Of a DNA stretch of 64,000 bases, positions 40,440 to 46,271 are shown piece after piece. The position numbers and the translations under genes are program-made. Below the pieces are notes generated by a model that worked only from the letters and a program-made list of their open reading frames with translations, ran no database searches and was not told the origin of the DNA. Within the stretch, counting starts at the first letter, position 1; each line of letters opens with the position of its first letter. Origin of the DNA: Kaistella gelatinilytica (GTDB taxonomy: Bacteria > Bacteroidota > Bacteroidia > Flavobacteriales > Weeksellaceae); the NCBI RefSeq assembly GCF_015679325.1, contig NZ_JADPVI010000003.1, positions 62,001 through 126,000 of the forward strand, given 5' to 3'.

Positions 40440-41441
40440 ATGACAGAAAACAGCAATTCCCCCAATAATAATTTTGCCTTTCAAAGATGGGTCGCCATCA
40501 TCGGGATTGTACTTTTTATCGGAAAACTTATCGCTTGGCATTTGACCAATTCTGATGCGGTTTTTTCTGACGCCATGGAAAGTATCGTGAATATCATCGC
40601 TGCTTTTATGGGATTATATTCGCTTTATCTCGCTGCAAAACCCAAAGATCGCGAACATCCTTACGGACATGGAAAAGTAGAATTTGTGACTTCAGGAATC
40701 GAAGGAGCGCTTATTATTTTCGCCGGAGTTATTATTATCGTACAGTCTGTCGATTCTTTATTACACGGAAATACTCCTAAACAATTAGACTGGGGAATCC
40801 TCATCGTTGCCGTTACCGCCGTAATTAATTATTTGCTGGGTTACATTTCTACTAAAAAAGGGATCAAAGAAAATTCCCTTGTTTTACAAAGTTCGGGGAA
40901 ACATCTGCAGAGCGATACTTTAACTACACTTGGCGTAGTCGTGAGTTTGATCCTGGTTTATTTCACTAAACTCTACTGGATCGATGCAGTCGTCGCCTTA
41001 CTTTTCGGTGCATATATTATGTTTGTGGGGTATAAAATTATTCGTAAATCGTTGAGCGGAATTATGGATGAAGCAGATCTTGGAATGCTTTCCCGCCTCG
41101 CTGCTTTTCTCAATGAAAACCGAAAACCGGAATGGATCGACCTTCACAATATGCGAATTCAACAGCACGGAAGCGGACTTCACATCGATGCTCATTTAAC
41201 AATTCCATGGTATTTTCAATTGCGGAAAGCGCACGAAGAAATGGAAGAAATGTACCGTTTGATCGGAGAAAATACAGACCGAACGATCGAATTTAATTTT
41301 CACTTAGATGATTGCAAACCGGCTTCCTGCGAAATCTGTCAAATTTTTGATTGTCCGGTTCGGGAAAGACCTTTTGTGAAAAAAATCGAGTGGAATTACA
41401 AGAATATTTCTCAGGTGAGCAAACATGATGTCAATAATTAA
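40440..41441 (+). CDS. Cation diffusion facilitator with Cys-rich C-terminus
   Basis: A 333-residue inner-membrane metal exporter with six helices. The SDAMESIVN pair of acids, the HPYGHGKVEF loop after helix 3 and the QSDTLTTLG helix 5 motif (Gln in place of the usual His, followed by Asp) mark a CDF protein. The cytosolic domain ends in a segment with four Cys (ASCEICQIFDCPV plus one upstream, DDCKP), which could be a metal site absent from classical Zn exporters. The 3' end overlaps the leftward XrtF partner by 4 bases. Confidence 0.9.
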   Translation: MTENSNSPNNNFAFQRWVAIIGIVLFIGKLIAWHLTNSDAVFSDAMESIVNIIAAFMGLYSLYLAAKPKDREHPYGHGKVEFVTSGIEGALIIFAGVIIIVQSVDSLLHGNTPKQLDWGILIVAVTAVINYLLGYISTKKGIKENSLVLQSSGKHLQSDTLTTLGVVVSLILVYFTKLYWIDAVVALLFGAYIMFVGYKIIRKSLSGIMDEADLGMLSRLAAFLNENRKPEWIDLHNMRIQQHGSGLHIDAHLTIPWYFQLRKAHEEMEEMYRLIGENTDRTIEFNFHLDDCKPASCEICQIFDCPVRERPFVKKIEWNYKNISQVSKHDVNN

Positions 41442-41875
41442 AGGCGGTTAATTATCATCTTTTTTCGATAATAAAACAGCGGAATGATCAGTAAGAGGAT
41501 CAAAGGTTGAATAACAAATCTTCTCATATAAAAAGAAAACAGATATCCGATCTCAAATTTGGTGTGAATGCAGTACAAATAGATCGGCAACGTGATCGCG
41601 AAAACAATAAGCATTAAAATGATCGCCTGAATGGTCCACTCTTTATTTTTGAAAATAAAATAAACAACCACTGCAGAAAAGAAGAGATTCAGCAAAAACC
41701 GAAATGCATAACTAAGAATGAGCTTCGTCCATTCAAAATCCGGAAAAGCTGCGTGTTTATTAGCTTCATGAAAATAGTAGAGAAAAGGATCGTAAAAAAT
41801 CTGATCTTCCAGCATGCGAATGCTGATGAGACCGAAAACTCCCAGAATTACAAAAAGCCAGCTAAATATTTTCAT
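41438..41875 (-). CDS. Exosortase F-associated membrane protein
   Basis: A 145-residue membrane protein with about four helices and the conserved FYDPFLYYFH loop after the first, which I recognise from the flavobacterial exosortase F-associated family. It overlaps xrtF by 14 bases, so the two are translationally coupled. No function beyond association with XrtF is known. Its 3' end overlaps the CDF gene tail-to-tail by 4 bases. Confidence 0.85.
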   Translation of the reverse strand: MKIFSWLFVILGVFGLISIRMLEDQIFYDPFLYYFHEANKHAAFPDFEWTKLILSYAFRFLLNLFFSAVVVYFIFKNKEWTIQAIILMLIVFAITLPIYLYCIHTKFEIGYLFSFYMRRFVIQPLILLLIIPLFYYRKKMIINRL

Positions 41876-42404
41876 TTTTTGTTTCCTTTAAAGCAAAAAA
41901 TTTAACCCAGATGAGCCAGAGAAGCACAACACTTCCATAAATAATCGCGGGAAAAAAATAATCATGACCAATCTTCGAATATTTCGGCAATTCTAAAATG
42001 ATGATATTGAGTCCGGCAATTCGAAGAATATTCATAATGTGGAGGAACAGCAATCCGAAAATTACAAAGAGAAAAGTTTTTGCTCCCTTATAGAAAGCAA
42101 AGATAAAGGACAGGAACAAAATCATGATCGAAATTGCGTTGCAACCTTCTACCATTCGAGACGTATATTTTCCACTGACAAAAAACCATGTCGTTTCATC
42201 TTGCGGTTTTCCCGGTATCATTTGCGAAGGATAACCCAGAAATTGCTGCACAAAAGTTGTTTGTCTCATGACCCAGGTTGAAAAAGGATCTAAACCTGCA
42301 TTTTTGAATTCATTAAGGTAAAACTGATACGCCAAAACCATTACCACATATAAAATGATAAATCGCAGCAGAATTTTCAGAACAGGCTTGAAATCAGTGA
42401 ACAT
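41862..42404 (-). CDS. xrtF: Exosortase family protein XrtF
   Basis: A 180-residue inner-membrane protein, the flavobacterial XrtF subtype of exosortase. The catalytic Cys88 in VEGCNAISI, Arg128 in NILRIAGLN and His147 in IGHDYFFP match the exosortase/archaeosortase triad. Exosortases cleave a C-terminal sorting signal and pass the protein to the envelope or a polysaccharide. I see no protein in the window with an obvious PEP-CTERM-like tail. It is coupled to its partner gene and diverges from the amgK operon. Confidence 0.92.
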   Translation of the reverse strand: MFTDFKPVLKILLRFIILYVVMVLAYQFYLNEFKNAGLDPFSTWVMRQTTFVQQFLGYPSQMIPGKPQDETTWFFVSGKYTSRMVEGCNAISIMILFLSFIFAFYKGAKTFLFVIFGLLFLHIMNILRIAGLNIIILELPKYSKIGHDYFFPAIIYGSVVLLWLIWVKFFALKETKNENI

Positions 42405-42442: not shown

Positions 42443-42450
42443 TATATTTG
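42443..42450 (+). promoter_or_regulatory. -7 promoter box for the amgK operon
   Basis: TATATTTG ends 7 bases before the ATG at 42458, implying a leader of only 3-4 bases. Confidence 0.6.
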
Positions 42451-42457
42451 TAAAAGT

Positions 42458-43486
42458 ATGACCAGGGAAAAGGCACAAGTTTTTTTTGAAGAATTTATCG
42501 GCGAGAAAGCGTCCGATTTTTTTAGTTTAGCACAAAGCGGCTCTGCAAGGATAAATTTTGTAGGCAAAAGTTCGGACAGAAAATACATCATCACGTTTAA
42601 TGATAATTTAGCCGAAAACGAAAGTTTCTATTATTTTTCCCGGGTTTTTTCTGAACTTCAATTAAACACTCCAAAAATTTACAAGATCTCTGAAGATTGG
42701 AAAATTTATATTCAGGAATTTTTGGGCGAGAAAACATTATCAGAAGTTATCGAAGCGGAAGGATTTTCCGAAAGAACGAAATCTTTAGTTAAAGAAACGC
42801 TTCAAAAACTTTTTAACCTTCAAACGAAAACCACCGAAGCAGTTGATTATTCAAAAACCTTTGAATACGAAAGCTACAACGAACTTCCAGTTTTAAATGA
42901 TTTATTTTATTTCAAAAGTTTCATCGCCGATGTTTTAGAAATCCCTTATCATAAAGCGAGTTTGCTTCTTGAATTTAAAAAATTAATTTCCCTAATTGAA
43001 AACCTGGAGCCAAAAGGAATCATGATCCGTGATTTTCAGGCGCGAAATATTATGGTCGGTGAAAATGACAAAGTTTATTTTATCGATTATCAGTCTGCGA
43101 TGAAAGGACCCTTGATTTACGATGTTGTTTCATTTTTATTTCAGGCAAAAGCAAATTTTCCTCATGATTTTAAAGAGGAAATGCTTAATTATTATTTCTC
43201 ATTGTGGAAGGAAGGGGAAAAAGTTGGGCAGTTGAAAAATTCTTTAAAACCGATTCAGCTGATCCGATTTCTGCAGGTTTTGGGAGCATATGGTTTCCGT
43301 GGATTGATTCAGAGGAAAAAACATTTTATTTCGAGCATCGATCAGGGAATAGAAAACCTTTTTACCTTTTCTGAAAACTGGGAGGAAATGAATGAATATC
43401 CTGAATTGAAGAAAATTATTTTGCAATTGAAAACGGATGAGGTGAAGAATAAAATTAATAACATTATTTTAAAACATGAGCAATAA
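42458..43486 (+). CDS. amgK: AmgK-like MurNAc/GlcNAc anomeric kinase
   Basis: A 342-residue aminoglycoside-phosphotransferase-fold kinase. The catalytic loop IMIRDFQARNIMV (Asp192, Asn197) and the metal motif YFIDYQSAMKGPLIYDVVSFL (Asp210) match AmgK, the kinase that phosphorylates MurNAc and GlcNAc at C1 for cell-wall recycling, much better than aminoglycoside resistance enzymes, which have HGD. A MurU-like uridylyltransferase lies three genes downstream, which supports the assignment. It is followed after 9 bases by the RapZ-C gene, with its stop inside a 20-base duplication. Cytosolic; substrate assignment is by family and context. Confidence 0.85.
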   Translation: MTREKAQVFFEEFIGEKASDFFSLAQSGSARINFVGKSSDRKYIITFNDNLAENESFYYFSRVFSELQLNTPKIYKISEDWKIYIQEFLGEKTLSEVIEAEGFSERTKSLVKETLQKLFNLQTKTTEAVDYSKTFEYESYNELPVLNDLFYFKSFIADVLEIPYHKASLLLEFKKLISLIENLEPKGIMIRDFQARNIMVGENDKVYFIDYQSAMKGPLIYDVVSFLFQAKANFPHDFKEEMLNYYFSLWKEGEKVGQLKNSLKPIQLIRFLQVLGAYGFRGLIQRKKHFISSIDQGIENLFTFSENWEEMNEYPELKKIILQLKTDEVKNKINNIILKHEQ

Positions 43487-43515
43487 ATTAAAAATATGAG
43501 CAATAAATTAAAGAT
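43476..43515 (+). repeat. 20-base tandem duplication at the amgK/rapZ junction
   Basis: ATGAGCAATAAATTAAAAAT at 43476-43495 is repeated at 43496-43515 with one change (AAAAAT to AAAGAT). The first copy holds the kinase stop and an ATG that would end after seven codons; the second is the start of the RapZ-like gene. Loss of the second copy would restore an overlapping gene arrangement. Confidence 0.9.
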
Positions 43516-43915
43516 AGAAATACACAGTTTTTCCTATAAAAAAGGCGGAATCCCTAAAGATTATAGCGGAAATGGTGGCGGTTTTGCCTTCGATTGTCGT
43601 GGAATCTTAAATCCTGGAAGAGTTGAAGAATACAAACAGCAAACCGGTTGTGATATCGGCGTTCAAAATTATCTGGAAACCGTAACCGAAATGCCTAATT
43701 TTTTAGAACTTGTAAAAAATTTGGTTTCCATCAATATTGATAATTATCTGTCCAGAGGATTTGAACATCTTCAAATTAATTTTGGATGTACTGGCGGACA
43801 ACATCGCTCGGTTTATTGCGCTGAAAAAATTGCTGCATTCGTTAAAGAAAAATATCCGCAAACTGAAGTTATGCTTCAGCACGACGAACAGCCACAACTT
43901 AATCAGCATGTTTAA
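43496..43915 (+). CDS. Stand-alone RapZ C-terminal domain protein
   Basis: A 139-residue cytosolic protein equal to the C-terminal domain of E. coli RapZ, without its P-loop N-terminal domain. The diagnostic loop INFGCTGGQHRSVYCAEKIA (residues 94-113) corresponds to IGCTGGKHRSVYIAEQLA of RapZ, the glucosamine-6-phosphate-binding site, and FDCRGILNPGRV aligns with the earlier FDVRFLPNP. In E. coli the domain senses GlcN6P to control glmS via small RNAs; here it lies between a MurNAc kinase and a MurU-like enzyme, pointing to a sensor for recycled amino-sugars (inference). DUF805 starts 8 bases before its stop. Confidence 0.9.
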   Translation: MSNKLKIEIHSFSYKKGGIPKDYSGNGGGFAFDCRGILNPGRVEEYKQQTGCDIGVQNYLETVTEMPNFLELVKNLVSINIDNYLSRGFEHLQINFGCTGGQHRSVYCAEKIAAFVKEKYPQTEVMLQHDEQPQLNQHV

Positions 43916-44282
43916 AAATCCTTTTTCTTTTGAAGGTAGAATTCGACGAACAGAATTCGGGATTTCGTACCTAATTTACATTGGTATTTCAACGATTTTT
44001 TCTTTGGTTCGAGAGAAAATGAAGCAACAAGGCGATGAGAATTTATTGTTGTTGATTATTACTTTAATATCTTATATTCCTTTGATATGGTTTTCTTTAG
44101 CGCAAGCTGCAAAAAGATGTCATGATCGCGGAAATTCTGGTTGGTATCAATTAATTCCGTTTTATGTGTTATGGTTAATTTTTGCTGACGGGGAAGTTGG
44201 CCCAAATGAATATGGTCCAAATCCTAAAGGAATCGGAAATTTTGATGAAATAAACGAAATAGGATTAAAAGAAACTTTTTAA
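43908..44282 (+). CDS. DUF805 membrane protein
   Basis: A 124-residue inner-membrane protein: FSFEGRIRRTEFGISYLIY at the N-terminus, two to three hydrophobic segments, and the AAKRCHDRGNSGWYQLIPFY motif near residue 75 that defines DUF805. Function unknown. The ATG at 43908 overlaps the RapZ-C stop by 8 bases, so it is translated with it; the longer frame from 43737 lies wholly inside RapZ-C and is rejected. It is the only membrane protein of this operon. Confidence 0.85.
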   Translation: MFKNPFSFEGRIRRTEFGISYLIYIGISTIFSLVREKMKQQGDENLLLLIITLISYIPLIWFSLAQAAKRCHDRGNSGWYQLIPFYVLWLIFADGEVGPNEYGPNPKGIGNFDEINEIGLKETF

Positions 44283-44283
44283 T

Positions 44284-44997
44284 ATGAAGGCACTCATCTT
44301 CGCAGCCGGAAAAGGCACCCGCTTAAAACCTTTTACTGATCATCATCCAAAAGCACTTGCGGTGGTGAATGAAGTTCCTTTGCTGGAAAGAAACATCAAA
44401 TATATTCAGAGTTTTGGCATCAATGAATTCGTAATTAATGTTTATCATTTTGGAGAACAGATTACCGATTTTTTGAAGAAGAATGATAATTTCGGTGCGA
44501 AAATTGAGATCTCAGACGAAAAAGAAGAGTTACTCGAAACTGGCGGTGGTTTAGTTTTTGCAAGAAAATTTCTGGATTTTAAAGAAGATTTTCTGATCAT
44601 GAATGCAGATATATTAACAGATTTAGATTTGAATGGTTTTGTTAAATTTCATCAGGAAAAGAAAGATTTCGCTACATTAGCAGTATCAGACCGCGTTAGT
44701 TCTCGTAAACTTCTTTTCAATGAGAATATGATCTTACGAGGTTGGCTCAATGTACAAACAGGCGAACAGCGATTGGCAGAATTCAACAAAGGATTTAAAC
44801 CTTTAGCTTTTAGCGGAATACACTGCATTAATCCCCGAATTTTTAATAAGATAAAAAGAAAAGGCAAATTTTCCATCATGGAAGAGTATCTGGATTTAAT
44901 GCACACTGAAGAAATTCATGGCTATGAACATCAAGCCCATTTAATCGATGTTGGAAGACCGGAATCTATTCTGGCAGCAGAAAAAATTTTTAAATAA
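44284..44997 (+). CDS. murU: MurU-like sugar-1-phosphate nucleotidyltransferase
   Basis: A 237-residue nucleotidyltransferase. The NTP-binding FAAGKGTRLKPFTDHHPK (residues 6-23), the LETGGG loop near 85, and the metal Asp of MNADILTDLD near 108 closely match MurU, which makes UDP-MurNAc from MurNAc-1-phosphate supplied by AmgK. A general glucose- or mannose-1-phosphate enzyme of the same fold is possible, but the AmgK-like neighbour favours MurU. One base separates it from DUF805; the LOG gene starts 4 bases after it. Confidence 0.82.
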   Translation: MKALIFAAGKGTRLKPFTDHHPKALAVVNEVPLLERNIKYIQSFGINEFVINVYHFGEQITDFLKKNDNFGAKIEISDEKEELLETGGGLVFARKFLDFKEDFLIMNADILTDLDLNGFVKFHQEKKDFATLAVSDRVSSRKLLFNENMILRGWLNVQTGEQRLAEFNKGFKPLAFSGIHCINPRIFNKIKRKGKFSIMEEYLDLMHTEEIHGYEHQAHLIDVGRPESILAAEKIFK

Positions 44998-45001
44998 ACG
45001 A

Positions 45002-45760
45002 ATGAGTAAAATAAAAAGAGGGAAAGGAACTTCGATAGAATTGACCGGACCCGCATTTGAGATCGATCAAAAAGTACAAAGTTCTTTCAAGGAAAAAACC
45101 TGGGACGAAACCATCACCAAAGACAGCTGGATGGTTTTTAAAATAATGGCGGAATTTGTAGATGGCTACGAAAAATTGGCGAAAATTGGTCCCTGCGTTT
45201 CTATATTTGGATCTGCACGGCTAAAACCAGGCAGCGAACATTATAACATGGCGGTAGATATCGCAGAAAAAATTACAGAAATCGGTTTCGGTGTCATCAC
45301 AGGAGGTGGTCCCGGAATCATGGAAGCCGGAAACAAAGGTGCTCATCAAGGTGGCGGAAAATCGATCGGATTGAATATAGAGTTGCCTTTTGAACAGCAT
45401 TTTAATCCTTTTATTGATAAAGGTTACAGCATGGATTTTGACTACTTTTTCGTAAGAAAAGTAATGTTCATTAAATATTCTCAAGGTTTCATCGTAATGC
45501 CGGGAGGATTTGGGACTTTGGATGAATTGATGGAAGCAATTACTTTAATTCAAACCGATAAGATCGGCAGATTTCCTATCGTTCTGGTTGGGTCAAAATA
45601 CTGGGGCGGTCTCATCGACTGGTTTAAGAATACCCTTTTAGTAAACGGTATGATCTCTGAAGAGGATTTGAATCTTTATCGTGTTGTTGATACCGCGGAA
45701 GAAGCAGTTGCTCATATCAAGGCTTTCTACGACAAATATACAGTGAACGTTAATTTCTAA
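45002..45760 (+). CDS. LOG family protein (TIGR00730-type)
   Basis: A 252-residue Rossmann-fold protein of the LONELY GUY/lysine-decarboxylase-like family. It has GSARLKPGSEHY, the nucleotide-binding TGGGPGIMEAGNKGA and the PGGFGTLDELMEAITLIQT motif, whose Glu is catalytic in nucleoside 5'-monophosphate phosphoribohydrolases. The enzyme would cleave AMP-type nucleotides to base and ribose 5-phosphate. The ATG at 45002 is preferred to 44948, which would overlap murU. It ends the amgK operon; how it relates to cell-wall recycling is unclear. Confidence 0.88.
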   Translation: MSKIKRGKGTSIELTGPAFEIDQKVQSSFKEKTWDETITKDSWMVFKIMAEFVDGYEKLAKIGPCVSIFGSARLKPGSEHYNMAVDIAEKITEIGFGVITGGGPGIMEAGNKGAHQGGGKSIGLNIELPFEQHFNPFIDKGYSMDFDYFFVRKVMFIKYSQGFIVMPGGFGTLDELMEAITLIQTDKIGRFPIVLVGSKYWGGLIDWFKNTLLVNGMISEEDLNLYRVVDTAEEAVAHIKAFYDKYTVNVNF

Positions 45761-45800: not shown

Positions 45801-46271
45801 ATGAAAAAGTTTTTACAGATTACAGGAATATTGGCTTTGATGATATTGATGAGTTTTGAAGGTGCAGACTTTTACTCCTCAATGACAAAAGTGGATTATG
45901 TGGAAGGAAGCAAGACCTTAAAATTCACGACAAAAATGAATAAGGAACACATTTCTGACGCCATTAAAATAAATTCAAGCACCGCAGGTTTTGAAGCAGA
46001 GGTAAAAAAATATGTGAATAATAATTTCGATCTGTACGTGAACGGAAGTCCAAAAGCACTTACGTTCACAGGCAGTCAAATTAATGGCGAATCAGTTTGG
46101 GTATATTTTGAAGCGAACGGTATTGCTGACATCAGTACTTTAAAAATTAAAAATACGATCATGTTGAGTACCTTCCCGAAACAGTTTAACCTTGTTAATA
46201 TCGCTTACAAAGGAAATCAGAAAACAATGAATTTTCAGCGAGGAAAAGAAGTGAATGAGGTTAGTTTTTAA
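45801..46271 (+). CDS. DUF6702 family exported protein
   Basis: A 156-residue exported protein with an N-terminal hydrophobic signal (ITGILALMILMSFEGADF). The mature part, from HISDAIKINSS to KNTIMLSTFPKQFNLVNI, fits the DUF6702 family of small Bacteroidota secreted beta-rich proteins. Function unknown. It has its own promoter and is followed by a hairpin terminator at 46291-46330. Confidence 0.75.
   Translation: MKKFLQITGILALMILMSFEGADFYSSMTKVDYVEGSKTLKFTTKMNKEHISDAIKINSSTAGFEAEVKKYVNNNFDLYVNGSPKALTFTGSQINGESVWVYFEANGIADISTLKIKNTIMLSTFPKQFNLVNIAYKGNQKTMNFQRGKEVNEVSF

Follow-up and report, generated by a model that had tools for sequence, protein, structure and literature searches.

We found that an AmgK-like sugar kinase, the C-terminal domain of RapZ (RapZ-C) and a MurU-like nucleotidyltransferase constitute, as judged from homology and gene order, a conserved unit in Bacteroidota, in which the first two are mostly fused into one protein. 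This unit is likely to be a MurNAc (amino-sugar) salvage module. The part played by RapZ-C is more tentative: it may be an enzyme of the pathway.

The unit was analysed in a 64,000-nucleotide stretch of Kaistella gelatinilytica DNA (the window), where an earlier note had described five closely packed genes behind one promoter as a single recycling system. Indeed, all five ORFs were present on the forward strand, and each matched its named family: the kinase (42458..43486; 342 aa, APH fold; PF01636, 41.5 bits), a stand-alone RapZ-C (43496..43915; 139 aa; PF22740, 104 bits with a cut-off of 27), a DUF805 membrane protein (43902..44282; PF05656, 72.3), the MurU-like sugar-1-phosphate nucleotidyltransferase (44284..44997; 237 aa) and a LOG-family protein (45002..45760; TIGR00730, 138.2 bits with a cut-off of 96.35). 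The next gene encodes a DUF6702 protein (45801..46271, forward strand) and occupies the same place in seven loci of the window's family. Close packing was seen at most junctions, with 9 bases between kinase and RapZ-C, an overlap of 14 bases between RapZ-C and DUF805, and 1 base between DUF805 and the MurU-like gene, but the overlap of LOG with MurU is probably an artefact of the start call. The LOG ORF had been listed from 44948; its true start is probably the ATG at 45002, 4 bases past the MurU stop, because in five relatives (L061-L065) the chosen LOG ORFs, of 250-252 aa, each begin after that stop. The single promoter fared less well. The -33/-7 promoter consensus is TTTG-N(17-24)-TAnnTTTG. 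A weak candidate -7 box, TATATTTG (42443..42450, forward strand; read directly), lies 7 bases 5' of the kinase ATG, but the full pattern had no match ahead of the kinase and occurred at chance level across the window, so that one promoter can be proposed only weakly.

The proposed link between kinase and RapZ-C was borne out in a survey of 296 Bacteroidota genomes, which yielded 36 RapZ-C genes in as many unselected loci: RapZ-C was fused to the kinase in 26 and adjacent to it in 8, and the remaining two genomes encode the kinase elsewhere, unlinked. A MurU-like gene adjoined the module in 28/36 of these loci. Likewise, among the best 80 of at least 586 named loci, the fusion recurred in 79 and MurU in 52, and the next family in 6; more distant neighbours included none that was widely shared apart from MurU, and tblastn with AnmK of the window's genome gave no match in loci L031-L145. 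The five-gene system of the earlier note was thereby reduced to a core of three, as DUF805 and LOG do not travel with the module across the 36 loci and were ruled out as parts of it. DUF805 is a local insertion outside the conserved module, present in 1/7 loci of the window's family and without a match in the other 35 loci (tblastn, E 1e-3), and LOG neighbours the module in 7/7 loci of the window's family and nowhere else among the 36. The fused protein was found in Bacteroidota including gut Bacteroides, Phocaeicola and Parabacteroides, and in records labelled Acidobacteria, Elusimicrobia, Calditrichia and Delongbacteria. A literature search that covered few subscription papers returned no paper on the kinase-RapZ-C fusion.

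Genome content was consistent with a role in MurNAc metabolism. AnmK was present and MurQ absent (MurQ being scored as present at E <= 1e-20) in 13/36 genomes with RapZ-C versus 0/124 without it, counts that carry no correction for phylogeny; since related genomes are not independent, Fisher values were not taken as probabilities. AnmK alone was rejected as a correlate, as it occurred in 26/36 genomes with RapZ-C and 91/124 without. The kinase was found without RapZ-C in 25 of these 124 genomes, none of which has AnmK or MurQ. All ten RapZ-C genomes that lack AnmK carry a PF01869 protein above cut-off, the family of the Tannerella forsythia MurNAc 6-kinase MurK (reported in PMC5790795). The window's genome belongs to the 13 with AnmK and without MurQ. 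The phosphoglycolate-phosphatase model found four HAD proteins in it, one of which scored 38 bits with the MupP model, against a cut-off of 359; the other three had no MupP match among the matches listed (the best 25 of 32 in one case).

With the curated families, both enzymes scored below cut-off. The window's kinase matched AmgK (NF045759) best, at 49.8 bits, and scored 20.6 bits with NF045698, far under the cut-offs of 550 and 500; because the curated AmgK cut-offs were not reached, its sequence is classed as AmgK-like only. On the same AmgK model, a fused Bacteroides homologue scored 63.4 and a kinase of f17, a family without RapZ-C, 104.8. The MurU-like protein scored 148.3 bits with NF045761, top of 22 families with the next at 89.4 and under the cut-off of 250, and it matched 4y7t (3.2e-25) and the MurU chain 8hhd (5.1e-24). 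In family f17, NamZ lay near the kinase in 6/6 genomes looked at, a MurU-like match adjoined the kinase in 4/5 loci, and in one locus (L148) a sodium symporter followed NamZ. This context suggests that the input of the f17 route could be unphosphorylated MurNAc. The mere presence of NamZ was uninformative as a discriminator (77/80), its position in f17 being the exception. The theme of cell-wall recycling thus persists as probable amino-sugar salvage, drawn from the AnmK/MurQ pattern and the position of NamZ in f17.

From these features we infer that MurNAc is the substrate of the kinase. That kinase and nucleotidyltransferase instead use another sugar or small molecule, with an accidental link to MurNAc, is improbable, as AmgK and MurU were the top-scoring NCBIfam families and both the genome pattern and the NamZ and symporter beside the f17 kinase argue against it. 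We give a similarly small chance to a GlcNAc or GlcN route, in which RapZ-C would act catalytically on GlcNAc-6P or GlcN6P, the kinase would serve as a general N-acetylhexosamine 1-kinase, and UDP-GlcNAc would be the product of the nucleotidyltransferase. NCBIfam does name AmgK enzymes N-acetylmuramate/N-acetylglucosamine kinases, N-acetylhexosamine 1-kinase is among the fold neighbours of the kinase, and the known RapZ ligand is GlcN6P according to PMC7073468, but such a route predicts neither the presence of AnmK without MurQ nor the NamZ neighbour in f17.

In RapZ-C, eleven residues were invariant in 54/54 aligned homologues (C98, T99, G100, G101, H103, R104, S105, D22, D33, R35 and H129), and the motif CTGGxHRS was found in 80/80 fused loci. 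RapZ-CTD is described as dimerising alone (PMC7073468), which would suit a domain that merely oligomerises or stabilises the kinase; this many invariant positions in the anion loop and at acidic, Arg and His sites, together with the two genomes in which the domain is unlinked from the kinase, make that role very improbable. C98-x5-R104-S105 meets the C-x5-R-S/T loop pattern of Cys-based phosphatases and sits between a strand and a helix. The likeness to these enzymes is one of sequence spacing, the fold match being not above noise: below E 0.001 Foldseek returned RapZ alone, and VIA gave, among the matches listed, only ones at noise level. Among NCBIfam models, RapZ-C matched RapZ and not MupP (NF009696), and on this basis it is proposed as an analogue of MupP, not a member of its family.

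The conserved pocket bears on whether RapZ-C senses or catalyses. The earlier reading, in which RapZ-C is a regulator that senses GlcN6P or MurNAc-6P and sets kinase activity by fusion or contact without catalysis, is rather unlikely, though it has the most in its favour among the rivals. The E. coli RapZ-CTD is reported to bind GlcN6P at about 10 nM by SPR, and GlcN6P to control RapZ contacts (PMC7073468); the anion pocket keeps its T, G, H and R, and the AnmK/MurQ association fits a signal equally well. Of the E. coli pocket residues H190, T248, G249, H252 and R253 plus C247, 5/6 are conserved, but H190 aligns with a Gly in 54/54 homologues, so ligand specificity probably differs from that of E. 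coli RapZ. Furthermore, the invariant Cys is not explained by a pure sensor alone, and a step would be missing wherever a genome has AnmK but neither MurQ nor a recognised MupP. An active role is preferred because the invariant CTGGxHRS fits the Cys-phosphatase loop, E. coli RapZ requires its loop Cys, and both NTPase and phosphatase activity are reported for the homologue YvcJ (PMC7525490). Taken together, the Cys loop, the genome pattern and the published hints favour catalysis at least as much as sensing.

We infer for RapZ-C both catalysis and a substrate, MurNAc-6-phosphate, from which it would strip the 6-phosphate with the conserved Cys as nucleophile; that it performs this phosphatase step has, from sequence, slightly less than an even chance. 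AnmK would supply MurNAc-6-phosphate from anhydro-MurNAc or, where AnmK is lacking, a MurK-type PF01869 kinase might form it from MurNAc. The AmgK-like kinase would then add a phosphate to C1 of MurNAc and the MurU-like enzyme would make UDP-MurNAc, with RapZ-C standing in for the HAD phosphatase MupP of Pseudomonas. The whole route, MurNAc-6P to MurNAc (RapZ-C), MurNAc-1P (kinase) and UDP-MurNAc (MurU), stands just short of an even bet. Somewhat more tentatively, RapZ-C may be a Cys-dependent phosphosugar phosphatase and the fusion a two-step dephosphorylate-rephosphorylate 'mutase' (MurNAc-6P to MurNAc to MurNAc-1P) that takes the place of MupP; in that case the GlcN6P sensor in E. coli RapZ would be an enzyme domain recruited for signalling.

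The module resembles the AmgK-MurU recycling with MupP outlined for Pseudomonas and Caulobacter (PMC5371407, PMC13046382) in its kinase and MurU-type pair, and the window's genome likewise has AnmK and MurA; it differs in that RapZ-C is fused or adjacent to the kinase in the Bacteroidota module and that no good MupP match was found among the four HAD proteins. The salvage route of T. forsythia, also a member of the Bacteroidota, comprises MurT, MurK, MurQ, AmgK and MurU, and the passages of PMC7670621 on AmgK and MurU make no mention of RapZ-C. RapZ and YvcJ (UPF0042) have the fold and anion loop of the C-terminal domain in common with the window's RapZ-C. In contrast, the kinase-like N-domain is absent from the window's genome (PF03668, 0 matches), as the earlier note had supposed, and RapZ-C has an additional DxSGNGGG stretch besides the Gly at H190.

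In genomes that have AnmK but no MurQ, this widespread and mostly fused protein probably fills a gap in MurNAc recycling. It makes a question about RapZ biochemically testable, namely whether its conserved Cys and its sugar-phosphate pocket carry out catalysis, and the salvage of cell-wall precursors may include RapZ-C as a hitherto unrecognised enzyme.

The RapZ C-terminal domain (RapZ-C, PF22740) was present in 36 of 296 Bacteroidota genomes, in open frames of two sizes, 478-524 aa (n = 26) and 134-155 aa (n = 10); none of the 36 had the length of classical RapZ, whose E. coli version has 284 aa. The earlier note had linked RapZ-C to an AmgK-like kinase and suggested a survey of their co-occurrence and fusion in Bacteroidota, and this survey supported the link: all 26 long frames were kinase and RapZ-C fused in a single protein, and the kinase lay directly upstream of RapZ-C in 8 of the 10 short-frame loci and elsewhere in the genome in the other two (G180 and G271). 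No MurU label adjoined the solitary RapZ-C genes of these two genomes (L056 and L059, respectively), and both genomes contained AnmK and lacked MurQ. Scanning GTDB contigs with the fusion alignment yielded at least 586 relatives, of which the best 80 were examined; the fusion was present in all 80, as expected from ranking by likeness to it. Named Bacteroides, Phocaeicola and Parabacteroides are among these 80, as are records, mostly MAGs, that bear the labels Ignavibacteria, Calditrichia, Delongbacteria, Elusimicrobia or Acidobacteria. The two samples overlap, since the two Ignavibacteria records share ORFs with G216 and G156, assigned to the same phylum in the genome sample.

A MurU-like nucleotidyltransferase gene followed RapZ-C or the fusion in 28 of the 36 Bacteroidota loci and not in the other 8. 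Among the best 80 of at least 586 relatives, it lay within 1.5 kb in 55 (at least 800 bases downstream were available in 75), and no further recurrent ORF family occurred in more than six loci. LOG adjoined the module in 7/7 loci of the window's family and 0/29 others; a LOG-like gene about 4 kb past MurU in another family's genome (L046, 14674-15426) may be chance or a remnant. DUF805 was found in one of the 36 RapZ-C loci, the window, where the membrane protein gene (43902-44282) follows RapZ-C, overlapping it by 14 bases, and precedes MurU; the family's six other loci showed no such gene. Exosortase XrtF and its associated membrane protein (41438-42404, minus strand) are divergent from the kinase (42458-43486, plus strand), 53 bases away, a placement kept in the family's seven loci.

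The pathway of AmgK, MurU, MupP and AnmK is known (passages of PMC5371407 and PMC13046382). AnmK, MurQ and the kinase were searched in 80 genomes (36 with and 44 without RapZ-C) and in 80 more without it, giving 124 without. The kinase (E <= 1e-8) was present in 36/36 RapZ-C genomes versus 25/124 without. MurQ, scored at E <= 1e-20 with a few so counted falling just below the curated cut-off, was present in 16/36 versus 98/124. AnmK by itself was rejected as a correlate, showing no difference (26/36, one of them incomplete where its contig ends, versus 91/124). AnmK without MurQ occurred in 13/36 RapZ-C genomes versus 0/124, counting one genome per species with kin among them and 7 of the 13 from one family. 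In G154, the AnmK reading frame (C1:93509-94549) carries a single in-frame TAG.

The 25 kinase-only genomes are G009, where a MurU-like gene and the kinase are adjacent, and 24 of 25 sampled genomes of a single family, f17; neither AnmK nor MurQ was found in any of the 25. In f17, a MurU-like match adjoined the kinase in four of five loci (L146-L150; L146 has no MurU label), and a NamZ gene lay about 1 kb from the kinase in 6/6 genomes examined, followed by a sodium:solute symporter in L148, the sole f17 locus scanned. NamZ is, from its family name, an exo-beta-N-acetylmuramidase, and the T. forsythia MurNAc importer belongs to the sodium symporter superfamily (in part of PMC5790795); because of these two points, MurNAc may arrive unphosphorylated in f17. 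With kinase, MurU-like gene and NamZ, and the symporter in L148, these loci without RapZ-C look like a self-contained unit of MurNAc uptake and reuse. An AmgK/MurU route has already been described in T. forsythia (passages of PMC7670621).

The window's genome encodes AnmK (C1:916203), MurA (C1:1473993) and NamZ (C1:1400108), and its sole MurQ-model match is weak, inside a 616-aa frame resembling GlmS. Four HAD proteins, found with a phosphoglycolate-phosphatase model, were nearest to a beta-phosphoglucomutase family, YjjG and TIGR02247 (two); the MupP model matched one at 38 bits (cut-off 359) and was absent for the other three among the matches listed. Since the comparison covered these four, a HAD-type MupP substitute may exist among the remaining HAD proteins. 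A PF01869 protein above cut-off was found in all 10 RapZ-C genomes without AnmK, and in G230 MurQ adjoins the PF01869 gene. This supports the route weakly, because PF01869 also exceeded the cut-off in 1/7 kinase-only genomes tested (G098; frames of 270 and 289 aa, presumably of the activase type) and 3/5 tested genomes with neither kinase nor RapZ-C.

In the predicted RapZ-C structure, a G-C-T-G-G-Q-H-R-S stretch links strand 91-98 to helix 104-119, and C98, T99, G100, G101, H103, R104, S105, D22, D33, R35 and H129 are invariant in 54/54 aligned homologues. The cysteine phosphatase signature is spaced C-x5-R (HCX5R; passage of PMC6355987). In E. coli RapZ, malonate or sulfate sits in this loop (passage of PMC5737377), whose cysteine is essential and not replaceable by serine, the mutants also losing RNA binding; a crystal of the E. 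coli C-terminal domain with GlcN6P contained a product that, according to the authors, was likely chemically transformed (section of PMC9841335). Tight GlcN6P binding by the E. coli C-terminal domain (passage of PMC7073468) would fit RapZ-C as a sensor, a less probable but serious alternative, though H190 of the E. coli GlcN6P pocket is replaced in the homologues here. At the protein level, NTPase and phosphatase activities are reported for YvcJ (passage of PMC7525490), and ATPase and phosphatase activities for Xanthomonas HpaP (title and citing passages), probably a RapZ relative judging from the citing context in PMC7073468 and PMC7525490. On the basis of the loop and cysteine data, the RapZ-family activity reports and the occurrence of AnmK without MurQ, we tentatively propose RapZ-C as a candidate MurNAc-6P phosphatase, a role about as open to doubt as to belief. 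In the route that we infer, in kinase substrate, RapZ-C activity and direction alike, RapZ-C would dephosphorylate MurNAc-6P, standing in for MupP in the salvage of MurNAc to UDP-MurNAc.
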